From a virus: DNA of 25,721 nt. The notes beneath the pieces are model-generated. The model worked only from the letters and a program-made list of their open reading frames with translations. It was not told the DNA's origin and made no database searches. Both the position numbers and the translations under genes were made by a program. The stretch's first letter is position 1; every line of letters begins with the position of its first letter. Where the stretch lies: positions 1 to 25,721 of the IMG/VR virus record IMGVR_UViG_3300025669_000175; one strand, written 5' to 3'. Positions 2,687-21,925 of the stretch are shown here, piece by piece.

Positions 2687-3060
2687 TTCTTATTATTTGG
2701 GTATATCTTAAAATTTTCCTTCATCTCAGTTTCTAGTGTTCTATCCCCAAGGGATACTCTCATAAGTCTATTTAATATTTCAATAGTTCGATGTCGTTCT
2801 GATTCCATACCCTCATTTCTATGACTGAAAGAGTGCAATTTAGCAATTTCTTTTAGTATTTCACTACAGTCATAAGTATCTACATCAAAAATTTTATTAG
2901 TAATATTCCCCCAGCTATCCTTTTCTATAAATCGGTTCGAATTTAACATACCCTCTATATTCATAATCACATCTCTGAACTTGTTATAAATATAAAGATT
3001 TCGTTTATCAAGTTTATCGCACTTTGCCTCTAAATCTTCTATTTGTTGTTGTTTAGTCAT
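2683..3060 (-). CDS. Hypothetical protein, 125 aa, N-terminal coiled coil
   Basis: Residues 1-25 (MTKQQQIEDLEAKCDKLDKRN) look like a short coiled coil. The rest is helical with no recognised domain. The start codon follows the second junction repeat (3062-3081), and the first bases overlap the end of the upstream HNH gene by 8 bases, suggesting coupled translation. Function unknown. Confidence 0.8.
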   Translation of the reverse strand: MTKQQQIEDLEAKCDKLDKRNLYIYNKFRDVIMNIEGMLNSNRFIEKDSWGNITNKIFDVDTYDCSEILKEIAKLHSFSHRNEGMESERHRTIEILNRLMRVSLGDRTLETEMKENFKIYPNNKK

Positions 3061-3580
3061 CTTGTTTATTTAATTTATTATATTGTCTTCTTAAAAAATG
3101 ATGTAATTTTGTATGCTCTCCTTTATACATTAAAAGTAAATTACTAATTTTATTGTTGCTTTTATTCTGGTCAAGATGATGGATTACTTCATTTTCGTAT
3201 AATTCTCTACCAATAAAATCTTCCATTATTATTATATGCTCATAAACCAATCCTTTATTATCTGCTCTTTTATGATTTGGTTCATGTATTTTTAAATAAC
3301 CATTAGTTATAACCTTTTCTTTATAACAAGGGCTTTCTTTTCCTTTCCTAATAGTATTTTTTTGATATATATAAAGGCACTTTCTACTACAAAACTTTCC
3401 ACCTCCTTTATTTATTTCTGTTATACAAGTTCCAAATTCTTGACCACACACTAAACATTTTTTTTTAATATTCCTAGAGCTTATTTTAATTCTTTTTTTT
3501 GAGCATTCTTTACACTCTCCTTGAAACCCATAAAATAAACTCTCATCTTTTAATATTCCACACTCCTTACATTTTTTCAT
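3053..3580 (-). CDS. HNH endonuclease with N-terminal zinc ribbons
   Basis: In this 175-residue protein, residues 4-26 hold a CxxC...CxxC ribbon (CKECG...CKECS) and residues 42-68 hold a second (CLVCG...CSRKC), both likely zinc-binding DNA-recognition knuckles. The C-terminal half is an HNH nuclease: residues 114-115 (EH), 134-138 (HHLDQ), 143-148 (NKISNL) and 156-160 (HTKLH). This arrangement is typical of phage free-standing mobile HNH endonucleases. It has its own extended -10 promoter directly upstream (3607-3615), so it starts a sub-operon. Confidence 0.9.
   Translation of the reverse strand: MKKCKECGILKDESLFYGFQGECKECSKKRIKISSRNIKKKCLVCGQEFGTCITEINKGGGKFCSRKCLYIYQKNTIRKGKESPCYKEKVITNGYLKIHEPNHKRADNKGLVYEHIIIMEDFIGRELYENEVIHHLDQNKSNNKISNLLLMYKGEHTKLHHFLRRQYNKLNKQDD
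3062..3081 (-). repeat. Second junction repeat class, copy 2 (20 bp)
   Basis: Exact copy of 2667-2686. It lies inside the 3' end of the HNH gene (coding for its last residues) and directly upstream of the 2683-3060 start. Confidence 0.85.
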
Positions 3581-3606
3581 AAATATATTTTAATAGTTAT
3601 ATATTT

Positions 3607-3615
3607 ATTATAACA
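3607..3615 (-). promoter_or_regulatory. Extended -10 promoter for the HNH sub-operon
   Basis: Minus strand reads TGTTATAAT, an extended -10 element with a perfect TATAAT. There is no clear -35 at 16-18 bases. It lies in the only sizeable gap of this part of the operon, between the SSB-tail gene and the HNH gene. The same TGTTATAAT word occurs upstream of other genes at 14262, 16105 and 20262. Confidence 0.55.
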
Positions 3616-3641
3616 TACCTTTTTAAATTAGGCTATTCCTT

Positions 3642-3998
3642 TCAAAAGGGCACATCTTCTATATTTATTTCTTCTTCATTATCTAAATTTATAGTAGGTA
3701 ATGCTGGTGCTGGTTCTGGTTGAACTGTTGTATTAGTTGGTGCTGTTGCATTTGGATATGAAGGCATTGGAACTGCTGTATTCTTGTTAGGAGCAGTATA
3801 TCCACGACTTTTATTTTCCTCATCTCTAGGCTCTTGTGTGTAATACTTTTCACTAGGGGTAGCATAGAGTTTGATTATTTGTCTATCACCATCTGCACTA
3901 GGGAAAGTCACTATCTCTCCTATCCTATGGTAATAACTCTTTTCTTCATTTGCTTTATTTGTGTATCTTTCTCTTGATACTATATATTTTTTTGTCAT
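3642..3998 (-). CDS. SSB-like protein with acidic C-terminal tip
   Basis: This 118-residue protein has a compact N-terminal part (about residues 1-65), a low-complexity linker rich in Pro, Ala, Thr and Asn (66-104), and an acidic tail ending EEINIEDVPF. That layout, with a terminal acidic-PF tip, is the hallmark of bacterial and phage single-stranded-DNA-binding proteins, whose tip recruits replication and recombination partners. The N-terminal part is short for a full OB fold and I do not recognise it as canonical SSB, so the call rests on the tail and on the position in a recombination operon with recT, exonuclease and ninB-like genes. It ends with TGA. Confidence 0.6.
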   Translation of the reverse strand: MTKKYIVSRERYTNKANEEKSYYHRIGEIVTFPSADGDRQIIKLYATPSEKYYTQEPRDEENKSRGYTAPNKNTAVPMPSYPNATAPTNTTVQPEPAPALPTINLDNEEEINIEDVPF

Positions 3999-5275: not shown

Positions 5276-5893
5276 CTATTGTTTTTTGACTTTCTTTATT
5301 AGATTTTTTATCATTATTTCTCCCTTAACAAATCCCTCTTGAAGTTTTGTTTGCATTATTTTACCAGGATAGATTCTATATATTAGTATAGACTTATTAA
5401 AATTAGGATTGTAAAAAACTAAATCAAACCATTTTCTTCCAATAACGAGTAAATTATTCTGCACTTGCCACTTATATGTAGAATCAATAGCACTTTCTCC
5501 ATTTAAAAGCATCTTAAAATAATTAACATCATTAGGGCATTTAATCTCTACCCCCCCGTCTTTTCCCACAAGTCCGTCTGGCGAACAACCTACATATTTA
5601 TTATATTCTACAAAACCAACTTCTTTAACCTCATTCCCCGTTTCTAATTCATAAATTGACCTAGCTTGTGGTTCTAATTCATTACCTCTCTCTAAATCTT
5701 TATTAGTATAATTTACTCTCTCGGCAGTAGAATAATACTCTGAAACTAACTGATAAATATAAGTTTCTAAACCTTTACCAGCATTTCCTATTGCTGTTCC
5801 ATGGGATGCAGTCATTTTTAATTCCCTTAATTTAAACCATTCAGGAGTTTGTTGGATTAAGTCATAATGATAAATTGGATATTTATTTTCCAT
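5276..5893 (-). CDS. YqaJ-type (lambda Exo-fold) 5'-3' exonuclease
   Basis: This 205-residue protein carries the motifs of the YqaJ viral recombinase family: PEWFKLRELKMTAS near residues 17-30, RGNELEP at 69-75, GCSPDGLV at 102-109 with catalytic Asp106, and GGVEIKCP at 113-120 with Glu116 and Lys118. This family degrades one strand of double-stranded DNA ends and hands the 3' overhang to a single-strand annealing protein. The RecT gene lies directly upstream and overlaps by 11 bases, the usual exo-annealase pairing. No active-site residue appears missing. Confidence 0.93.
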   Translation of the reverse strand: MENKYPIYHYDLIQQTPEWFKLRELKMTASHGTAIGNAGKGLETYIYQLVSEYYSTAERVNYTNKDLERGNELEPQARSIYELETGNEVKEVGFVEYNKYVGCSPDGLVGKDGGVEIKCPNDVNYFKMLLNGESAIDSTYKWQVQNNLLVIGRKWFDLVFYNPNFNKSILIYRIYPGKIMQTKLQEGFVKGEIMIKNLIKKVKKQ

Positions 5894-6665
5894 CTTTTAT
5901 AAGTTTAGTTTTTTTAGCCACTATCAATTCATTAAATGTTGCCTTGTCTTCGACCTTATCTTTATTCGCTAAATAATATTCCCTTAACTCTTTAACTGTT
6001 TTTATTTCCTTTATTTTTCCTGCTTCTTTTATTTCTTCTATTGGTTTTTCTAGGTCATAATTCTTATTATCTTCTTCATCCATTTTTTCGTAAATATCTG
6101 AAAAATGTAATTTAACTGCTTTTCTTATTAAAGTTTTATAGCTCATTTCGGCATACCAACTTTTCCAAATAAAATCAGTTTTTGCAATTCCCCTATGTTT
6201 ATCAAATTCATCTTTATTCAATATAGTTATGAATTCTCCTCTTTTGTTTTTAATTACTACATACCCACCAGTTATTTTATCAACATCTCTATCAAAAGGA
6301 TTAAGAATATTGTGTTGATATAATACACTTCCACTTTCTTTTGCTACATTAAAAGTATCGCCTTCATAAACGAGTTGAATATCAATTTTAGTTTCAGGAT
6401 ATGCTAGGAGCATTTTGTTTTTATAAGCTATGTAATCATACTGTATCCCCCTATAAGACAAGGTTATATGAATACCATCAAAAACTAATCCCTCTTTATT
6501 TACTGCTCTAAATAATTCAGATAAATTATCAGCAGTGTAGTTATTTATAAAAGAGTTTTTTGGGTCTTGTGATGTTTTATATATATAATTTATATAAGTA
6601 TTTACTTCTTCGTGGTTGTAATCTTTTAGAAGTTTTTTTATTTCGTTAAATATTGTATTGTCCAT
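5883..6665 (-). CDS. recT: RecT/Bet-type single-strand DNA annealing protein
   Basis: This 260-residue protein shows the RecT core: IDIQLVYEGD, GGYVVIKNKRGE, KDEFDKHRGIAK, and the diagnostic WKSWYAEMSYKTLIRKAVK around residues 165-185. The C-terminal third is charged and variable (KPIEEIKEAGKIKEIKT). RecT forms rings or filaments on single-stranded DNA and anneals complementary strands during phage recombination, repair and concatemer formation. It partners with the overlapping YqaJ exonuclease gene. The start at 6665 follows AATAAATATAAATAT. Confidence 0.93.
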   Translation of the reverse strand: MDNTIFNEIKKLLKDYNHEEVNTYINYIYKTSQDPKNSFINNYTADNLSELFRAVNKEGLVFDGIHITLSYRGIQYDYIAYKNKMLLAYPETKIDIQLVYEGDTFNVAKESGSVLYQHNILNPFDRDVDKITGGYVVIKNKRGEFITILNKDEFDKHRGIAKTDFIWKSWYAEMSYKTLIRKAVKLHFSDIYEKMDEEDNKNYDLEKPIEEIKEAGKIKEIKTVKELREYYLANKDKVEDKATFNELIVAKKTKLIKDGK

Positions 6666-20240: not shown

Positions 20241-20269
20241 TTGTTTATTTCGTGAAAATGTGTTATAAT
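20241..20269 (+). promoter_or_regulatory. Sigma70 promoter of the capsid block
   Basis: -35 TTGTTT (20241-20246), 17-base spacer, perfect -10 TATAAT (20264-20269) with TG extension. The start is predicted near 20276, leaving a leader of about 200 nt before ATG 20476. Confidence 0.75.
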
Positions 20270-20276
20270 AATTTCA

Positions 20277-20475
20277 AATAGACAACTTTGCAGGAAACCA
20301 ATAACCTGTCGAAAAAAATTGGTGCTGTTCTGTAGGAGAAAACCTATCTAAAAAACTCACAGTAAACATATTTATGTTTATTGTTGGAGGAAATAGACAT
20401 TAATATACAATGTCTATTTTTTCTGGTGAATCCTCCACCATTAATGAGGACAATTAATAAATTTAGTAAAACAAT
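20277..20475 (+). ncRNA. Structured leader RNA of the capsid block
   Basis: The leader begins with an H-type pseudoknot: stem 1 GCAGG (20290-20294) with CCTGT (20305-20309), stem 2 ACCAAT (20297-20302) with ATTGGT (20318-20323), a 2-nt first loop and an A-rich third loop. Then come TAGG/CCTA (20333-20346), a 10-bp hairpin (20360-20383) and an 11-bp hairpin (20391-20419) followed by U-runs. TGGAGGA (20385-20391) can pair with TCCTCCA (20431-20437). That site can alternatively fold as TGGTG/CACCA (20424-20440) or pair with GAGGA (20446-20450). The competing pairings suggest a regulatory switch. No riboswitch class recognised. Confidence 0.65.
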
Positions 20476-20877
20476 ATGGTAAATGTTCACAGTGGTGTAG
20501 TTATCACTAAATACAAAAACAAGACAGCTTCTACTGCTATTGCTATGGGTGCAATGCTTGAAATTTCAAGTGGTTATGTAACTCCAATAACATCAACGTC
20601 TGCACTTGTTTATGGTTCATCACAAGTTACTGTAACATCAGCTTCTGATGATTACGCTTCAACAACAAGAATTCCAATCACAGTTCCTACAAGTAGGACT
20701 ATGTTTAGAATGACAGTTACTGGAACTTTCGTAGCAACACAAGAAGGAGATTTATTTGATGCTTCTGATTCTGTTACTGTAGATGCAGATGCTTCTACTT
20801 ATGATATATTCTTATGTGAAAAATATATCTCTGCTACAGAAGGTATCTTTAGTATCCCAGCACCTCTTAGACAATAA
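20476..20877 (+). CDS. Probable head decoration/stabilisation protein
   Basis: This 133-residue protein is rich in Ser, Thr, Ala and Val with alternating strands (VHSGVVITKYKNKTASTAIA, VTVTSASDDYASTTRIPITV, FRMTVTGTFVATQEGDLFDA), as in small beta-sandwich capsid decoration proteins. It lies directly before the major capsid gene and shares its promoter and leader, so high expression is expected. Position and composition support the call; no exact family is recognised. Confidence 0.65.
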   Translation: MVNVHSGVVITKYKNKTASTAIAMGAMLEISSGYVTPITSTSALVYGSSQVTVTSASDDYASTTRIPITVPTSRTMFRMTVTGTFVATQEGDLFDASDSVTVDADASTYDIFLCEKYISATEGIFSIPAPLRQ

Positions 20878-20899: not shown

Positions 20900-21925
20900 A
20901 TGGCAGAAAGTACAGCTAATTTAATAAGTACACTTTCATTGAAAAATCTTGTGGATTTAACAAGAAGAAACTTCCTTCCTGCAATGGGAATGGTTGAAAC
21001 AAGAGCAATGGATTTATTTATTAAAGATGTAGTTCCAAAAGGCTACGGCAACACAAAACTTCATCAAGAAATTGATGTAGGAACTTTTGGTAATATAAAA
21101 AGAGAAGGAGCAGATGCTCAAAAGAAAAGGGTAGGACTTGGTTATACTAAAACTGTTACTGCTAAAAGAATAGCAGCAGAAGTTGATATAACTTGGGAAA
21201 TGAGAGAATACAGAAGAGATGCAGAAGTAATTTCTACTTTTACAGACTTATATCATTTTTGTCCACAAAGAATGGAATTAGATGCAACACATATTTTAAC
21301 ATTTGCTGCTTCTACTTCTTACACAGATATGGATGGTGAAACTGTTACTGTTTCTGGTGGTGATAGTTTAGCTCCTGTTTATGCTTCACACACACTTGCG
21401 TTTTCTAATGACACTTATTCTAATGTTATCGCAAACAACCCTCAATTTTCACAGGGTGCTTTAGAAATAGGTGAGAAGGTATTTTCAACACAAATCTTAA
21501 ATAACTTTGGTCAAAAAAGAGTTTTAAGAGCTTCACATTTATATTGTGCTGACAATCCTGTAGTAGAAAGAGCTATGAGGCAAGTTATGCAATCTACAGC
21601 AGATGTAGATACAAATAACAGTGGTATTATAAATACTTTTAAAGGTAAATACCAAATCGTTGTTCTTCCTTACTTAGCTTCTAGTGCTGATGGTAGTTAC
21701 GATTCTACAAAAGAAAATTACTGGGGATTAATCGCTGCTACTGGTTCTATCAAAAATAGAGCTCAAATTTACATGACTGTATTCGAAGAACCAAATCTTA
21801 AAACTCCTGCTACTGGAAACAATGGAGAAGATTTCCATAATGACAACTGGTCATTTGGAGTAAGAAGTTCTTACACAGTTGATGTAGTATGTGCTAAAGG
21901 TTTAGCTTCTTCAATGGCTACTTAG
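20900..21925 (+). CDS. Major capsid protein
   Basis: A 341-residue protein with the size, position and composition of an HK97-fold major capsid protein: a helical N-arm (STLSLKNLVDLTRRNFLPAM), a stretch rich in basic and aromatic residues (RIAAEVDITWEMREYRRDAE), a helical spine (GALEIGEKVFSTQILNNFGQ ... NPVVERAMRQVMQST), and a beta-rich P-domain-like end (YWGLIAATGSIKNRAQIYMT VFEEPN). It has more evenly used isoleucine codons than the early small genes, consistent with optimisation for high expression. The gene is followed by a 10-bp hairpin. Confidence 0.85.
   Translation: MAESTANLISTLSLKNLVDLTRRNFLPAMGMVETRAMDLFIKDVVPKGYGNTKLHQEIDVGTFGNIKREGADAQKKRVGLGYTKTVTAKRIAAEVDITWEMREYRRDAEVISTFTDLYHFCPQRMELDATHILTFAASTSYTDMDGETVTVSGGDSLAPVYASHTLAFSNDTYSNVIANNPQFSQGALEIGEKVFSTQILNNFGQKRVLRASHLYCADNPVVERAMRQVMQSTADVDTNNSGIINTFKGKYQIVVLPYLASSADGSYDSTKENYWGLIAATGSIKNRAQIYMTVFEEPNLKTPATGNNGEDFHNDNWSFGVRSSYTVDVVCAKGLASSMAT

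Follow-up and report, generated by a model that had tools for sequence, protein, structure and literature searches.

A conserved leader RNA with tandem structured elements, a candidate transcription attenuator, precedes the capsid genes of an uncultured phage family

The stretch of DNA analysed here (hereafter the window) comprises 25,721 nucleotides of the IMG/VR virus record IMGVR_UViG_3300025669_000175 and carries genes for a decoration protein and a major capsid protein, preceded by a structured leader (Table 1). Transcription of this block is expected to start near 20276-20277, behind a promoter that a first-pass annotation had proposed and that we located as TTGTTT and TATAAT boxes with a TG extension. 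It is absent from the output of a stock sigma-70 scan because TTGTTT gives just three of six matches. The same annotation had claimed a structured leader for the capsid block, and this is borne out by the minimum free energy of the window leader (-48.3 kcal/mol, z -3.36 against shuffles) and by a layout kept among relatives. Elsewhere in the window, on the minus strand, we noted two HNH endonuclease genes (1374-1934, with NUMOD4 and NUMOD1 domains, and 3053-3580) and adjoining genes for a YqaJ-type exonuclease and RecT, a recombination pair (5276-6665).

Table 1. Leader features and adjoining genes in the window
Feature	Position	Strand	Details
Promoter	20241..20269	+	-35 TTGTTT 20241-20246, 17-nt spacer, extended -10 TGT-TATAAT 20261-20269
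Element A, H-type pseudoknot	20290..20323	+	shuffle score and partner-swap tests
Element A, S1	20290-20294/20305-20309	+	GCAGG/CCTGT
Element A, S2	20297-20302/20318-20323	+	ACCAAT/ATTGGT
Element A, loops	20310-20317 (L3)	+	L1 2 nt; L2 2 nt; L3 8 nt, A-rich
Element B	20323..20364	+	partner-swap tests, folding model
Element B, outer stem P1	20323-20328/20359-20364	+	TGCTGT/ACAGTA
Element B, inner stem P2	20332-20336/20343-20347	+	
Element B, hexaloop	20337-20342	+	AGAAAA
Element B, A-run	20350-20355	+	
Hairpin H3	20360..20383	+	10 bp; pair probability near 1
Terminator-like hairpin H4	20393..20422	+	hairpin 20393-20417, U-tract to 20422; pair probability near 1
TCCTCCA segment	20431..20437	+	38 nt before ATG; can pair with TGGAGGA 20385-20391
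Decoration (cement) protein gene	20476..20877	+	133 aa; AlphaFold pLDDT 93; best Foldseek matches capsid-surface proteins, best E 1.1e-3
Major capsid protein gene	20900..21925	+	341 aa, HK97 fold; AlphaFold pLDDT 82.5; Foldseek E 7e-10 to phage capsids

Relatives were collected through the capsid gene, giving 36 non-redundant leaders and then about 20 more. The capsid protein has relatives at 44 loci in IMG/VR, and a second search, started from the motif-bearing clade, returned 59 loci, about 20 of them new; at the sensitivity used, no capsid relative was found among INPHARED phages (DNA and protein) or GTDB genomes. Over 7.3 kb, one contig matches the window almost perfectly (99.99%). In nearly all loci the gap upstream of the decoration gene measures about 70-460 nt, and the order across the family is promoter, element A, element B, terminator-like hairpin, decoration gene and capsid gene, with promoter-like sites in 12 of 54 leaders (3.5 in shuffles). 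Conservation in homologous phages, on which the first-pass annotation had staked its reading, was examined, and the leader is conserved in relatives. The first-pass annotation had also suggested that the leader might compensate for the missing Shine-Dalgarno sequence; start codons lacking an obvious one, as judged by eye, are common in these relatives, whether or not they bear the motif.

Inspection by eye showed that the gaps have in common a hairpin with (N)GU(N) and then an A-run behind it, and the motif copies were initially chosen in this way. A covariance model of the hairpin (R1), made from ten copies of the first leader set, picked up further copies within the same leaders; applied unchanged to the new loci, it gave eight matches at E<0.02, all eight lying in the leader on the plus strand. 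On 20 whole records, its best 17 matches were capsid leaders, eight being training copies. The number of similar elements per leader ranges from one to three. The hexaloop consensus is A-N-N-N-A-A (A1 in 19/20, A5 in 18/20, A6 in 20/20), and about half of the motif copies have loops of other lengths. The motif is missing from some relatives (L009, L012, L023). In four leaders with no terminator after the motif (L033, L034, L037, L083), another recurring hairpin, whose loop is close to TAAGCGACTGG, is located upstream of the motif.

Element A is a hairpin across the family, forming in some leaders an H-type pseudoknot with an A-rich loop 3. The pseudoknot that the first-pass annotation had described in the window is confirmed and exceeds chance, its stacking score being reached by none of 300 dinucleotide shuffles of the window leader. 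Over all leaders, a loose count of pseudoknots showed a modest excess (35 against 24.1 in shuffles, sd 4.2), and partner-swap tests, in which partners are exchanged between sequences, were used instead. Small pseudoknots, some with an A-rich loop and some in tandem, also characterize the T4 gene 32 leader, the preQ1-I riboswitch and STAXI. The parallel with T4 gene 32 drawn in the first-pass annotation fits the pseudoknot alone, not the layout of tandem elements plus terminator. Rfam covariance models, including preQ1-I and STAXI, had no match in the window or ten relatives; at permissive E-values the only hits were eukaryotic snoRNAs and miRNAs, which we discarded as chance.

Element B is a second element, resembling the first and absent from the first-pass annotation. 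In the family it consists of a hairpin with an AxxxAA loop and an A-rich tail, closed by the outer stem P1; in the window, base 20323 is common to P1 and to S2 of element A. An N-padded alignment (A8) for counting P1 pairs was discarded, both for the columns that MAFFT had shifted and for the visual choice of P1. Partner-swap tests over 25 copies, listed before any outer stem was noticed, gave 27/20,000 for the pseudoknot and 7/20,000 for the outer stem without splitting. When copies were divided into first and last, a split decided post hoc with the data already seen, the 5' copies supported the pseudoknot (3/20,000) and not the outer stem, and the 3' copies supported P1 (0/20,000) and not the pseudoknot. 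Pooling all instances yielded 0/50,000 for P1 and 28/50,000 for the pseudoknot, and leaving out the window changed these values to 0 and 208/50,000. In the new leaders alone, where copies are few, power is low and three loci are related, P1 received moderate support (p 0.035) and the pseudoknot was not replicated (p 0.10).

Both strong hairpins recognized earlier in the window, H3 and H4, are recovered with the pair probabilities given in Table 1; the terminator-like character of the latter goes beyond that annotation. H4 passes our terminator test as a weak, A+U-rich hairpin (-7.0 kcal/mol, just at the cut-off), and a stock terminator scan did not list it, its stem being A+U-rich. Terminator-like hairpins occur in 23 of the 36 leaders, against 2.6 (maximum 5) in shuffles, and are absent by the test from the other 13; counted at the same loci, they mark 30/52 capsid leaders versus 9/93 other gaps. 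At the family level, hairpins with a U-tract are therefore found above chance, as befits an intrinsic terminator. The promoter precedes the terminator in all nine leaders where both were called (the window, L010, L017, L021, L026, L027, L028, L029 and L035). In L034, L036, L065 and L083 the terminator lies upstream of the motif.

In seven relatives (L017, L027, L029, L032, L035, L038, L041), 3-6 nt belong both to the 3' strand of P1 and to the terminator 5' arm. When P1 5' strands were matched to terminator 5' arms among these seven, the true partners came out best of 5040 permutations. Folding of the growing transcript ended in the terminator in 7/7, with a probability of about 1 once it was complete. 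According to the folding models, P1 appears before the terminator in four (0.58-0.93 in L017, L029, L035 and L041), and in the nested model it stays below 0.1 in L027, L032 and L038. A third fold spanning the terminator is possible in L017, L035, L038, L052, L053 and L055, in which the sequence after the U-tract pairs back; in L038, ATTACACAA/TTGTGTAAT is an example of pairing across the terminator.

The window differs in that P1 and the terminator do not touch: P1 conflicts with H3 instead, which overlaps its 3' strand. In the folding model, the probability of P1 rises to 0.87 for RNA ending near 20376, after which H3 displaces this stem. If the 3' arm of H3 paired with the 5' arm of H4, this relay would couple P1 to the terminator in the sense seen in the relatives; such a pairing is equalled by 2758 of 20,000 shuffles (14%), and the link in the window itself is indirect and weak. 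As only this weak pairing would connect P1 to the terminator, we infer the window's switch from the family. The three partners claimed earlier for the TCCTCCA segment exist on paper, but its pairing with 20385-20391 is weak (about 0.01 in the nested ensemble). The first-pass interpretation thus stands in part: a structured, regulated leader with mutually exclusive folds is supported, but the conserved conflict opposes the outer stem of element B to the terminator rather than involving the TCCTCCA pairings.

We propose, with moderate confidence, that the leader attenuates transcription of the decoration and capsid genes, which would be ON as long as some factor keeps element B closed. RNA polymerase would start near 20277, synthesize element A as a pseudoknot and then element B with its hairpin and A-rich tail, and reach an intrinsic terminator ahead of the first gene. 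By default, the RNA would end in the terminator fold (OFF). Were a putative factor, for instance a ligand or a protein of phage or host origin, to keep element B closed, P1 would remove bases needed by the terminator and transcription would continue (ON). Element A presumably has a role in this, and the window presumably works like its relatives. Attenuation by a leader peptide was considered and set aside: the window has a short frame, MFIVGGNRH*, starting at 20374, of which no equivalent was seen by eye in L017 or L038.

Among known systems, ANTAR target RNAs, RAT sites and HK022 putRNA appear nearest in working, and the leader may be a variant of antitermination leader RNAs with a predicted function. 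In RAT sites, a hairpin with an asymmetric internal loop has its 3' side overlapping the terminator 5' arm. The leader can be likened to these LicT/BglG targets by layout, not consensus, the overlap being that of the relatives, and differs in its tandem elements; a Pfam scan covering 30 window proteins revealed no CAT-RBD (LicT/BglG) domain. The lambda pR'-tR' region shares a late promoter, a leader of roughly 200 nt, a terminator and structural genes downstream. It differs in that Q loads by way of a DNA site within the promoter and not an RNA structure (PMC6606751).

ANTAR target RNAs, recognized by EutV, NasR and AmiR, consist of tandem hairpins whose hexaloops begin with A and have G as their fourth base (PMC3369931, PMC8934654 for these RNAs; PMC3369931 for the loop rule). 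Shared with them are the tandem small hairpins, hexaloops starting with A and a second hairpin mutually exclusive with the terminator, the last in the seven relatives and not directly in the window. We rejected membership in this class, as G4 occurs in 2/20 hexaloops and A5 and A6 are kept instead; unlike ANTAR RNAs, the leader also has an A-rich tail, an outer stem and the other loop lengths noted above. No ANTAR domain was detected among the same 30 proteins, although the record may be partial and such a protein could be the host's.

HK022 putRNA, of about 70 nt, folds into two stem-loops, the first with a minor-groove RNA triplex, and putL sits just after its promoter (PMC9378689). By description, not sequence, our leader resembles it in having a pair of structured elements shortly after a phage promoter and an A-rich strand placed against the first stem; it differs in serving a late capsid operon rather than early genes and in the terminator overlap of the relatives. 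If it worked in the same manner, the tandem structures would bind RNA polymerase itself and cause terminators to be ignored, with neither a switch nor an extra factor. Two elements behind a promoter, and an A-rich strand in element A placed to lie in the S1 groove, are in line with such a mechanism, but it does not need the overlap between P1 and the terminator, and we consider it unlikely.

Rather less probable to us is autogenous control, in which capsid or decoration protein would bind the elements and shut off or tune its own expression. In the records searched, the motif is confined to the capsid leader, both downstream genes encode shell proteins and T4 gene 32 offers a precedent, yet in seven relatives a stabilised element B would switch expression on, opposite to what simple feedback requires. 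We give slightly lower credence to an ordinary juxtaposition, with the terminator closing the upstream operon and the remainder being loosely conserved structure: it suits L012 and L034, where the terminator is near the upstream gene, but clashes with the position of the promoter before the terminator in the nine leaders with both and with the specificity of the P1/terminator pairing. Least probable, in our estimate, is that pseudoknot and hairpins merely shield the 5' end of the mRNA from decay, which would agree with strong 5' structure and the repetition of one to three similar elements but leaves both the conserved loop and tail sequence and the terminators unexplained.

Literature searches returned no description of such a leader. 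We see an even chance that it represents an undescribed class of antitermination RNA, acting through its own factor or directly on RNA polymerase, which controls capsid genes in an uncultured phage family with at least one member using the TGA=Gly code of Gracilibacteria or Absconditabacteria. If the attenuator model is correct, an RNA switch before capsid genes would be a form of late-gene control unlike that by the lambda N and Q proteins. The tandem element points to an RNA-binding factor, or a direct action on RNA polymerase, to search for, and for phages known from metagenomes only, a conserved and testable RNA provides a handle on gene control.

The window shows no sign of the TGA=Gly code. 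In L050, the capsid gene (3001-3984) has three in-frame TGA codons and is readable only with TGA as glycine (code 25); at least two of these codons line up with glycines conserved among relatives, which suggests a Gracilibacteria or Absconditabacteria host for this phage. Three other loci have peculiarities of their own. The capsid gene of L069 (2000-3735) is interrupted, its frame breaking off after an initial part and continuing at a later point, which may reflect an intron or mobile insertion. A tRNA-Met (CAT) gene occupies the start of the capsid leader in L048 (2169-2240), and at the matching place L082 carries a tRNA-like 3' half that ARAGORN does not call.
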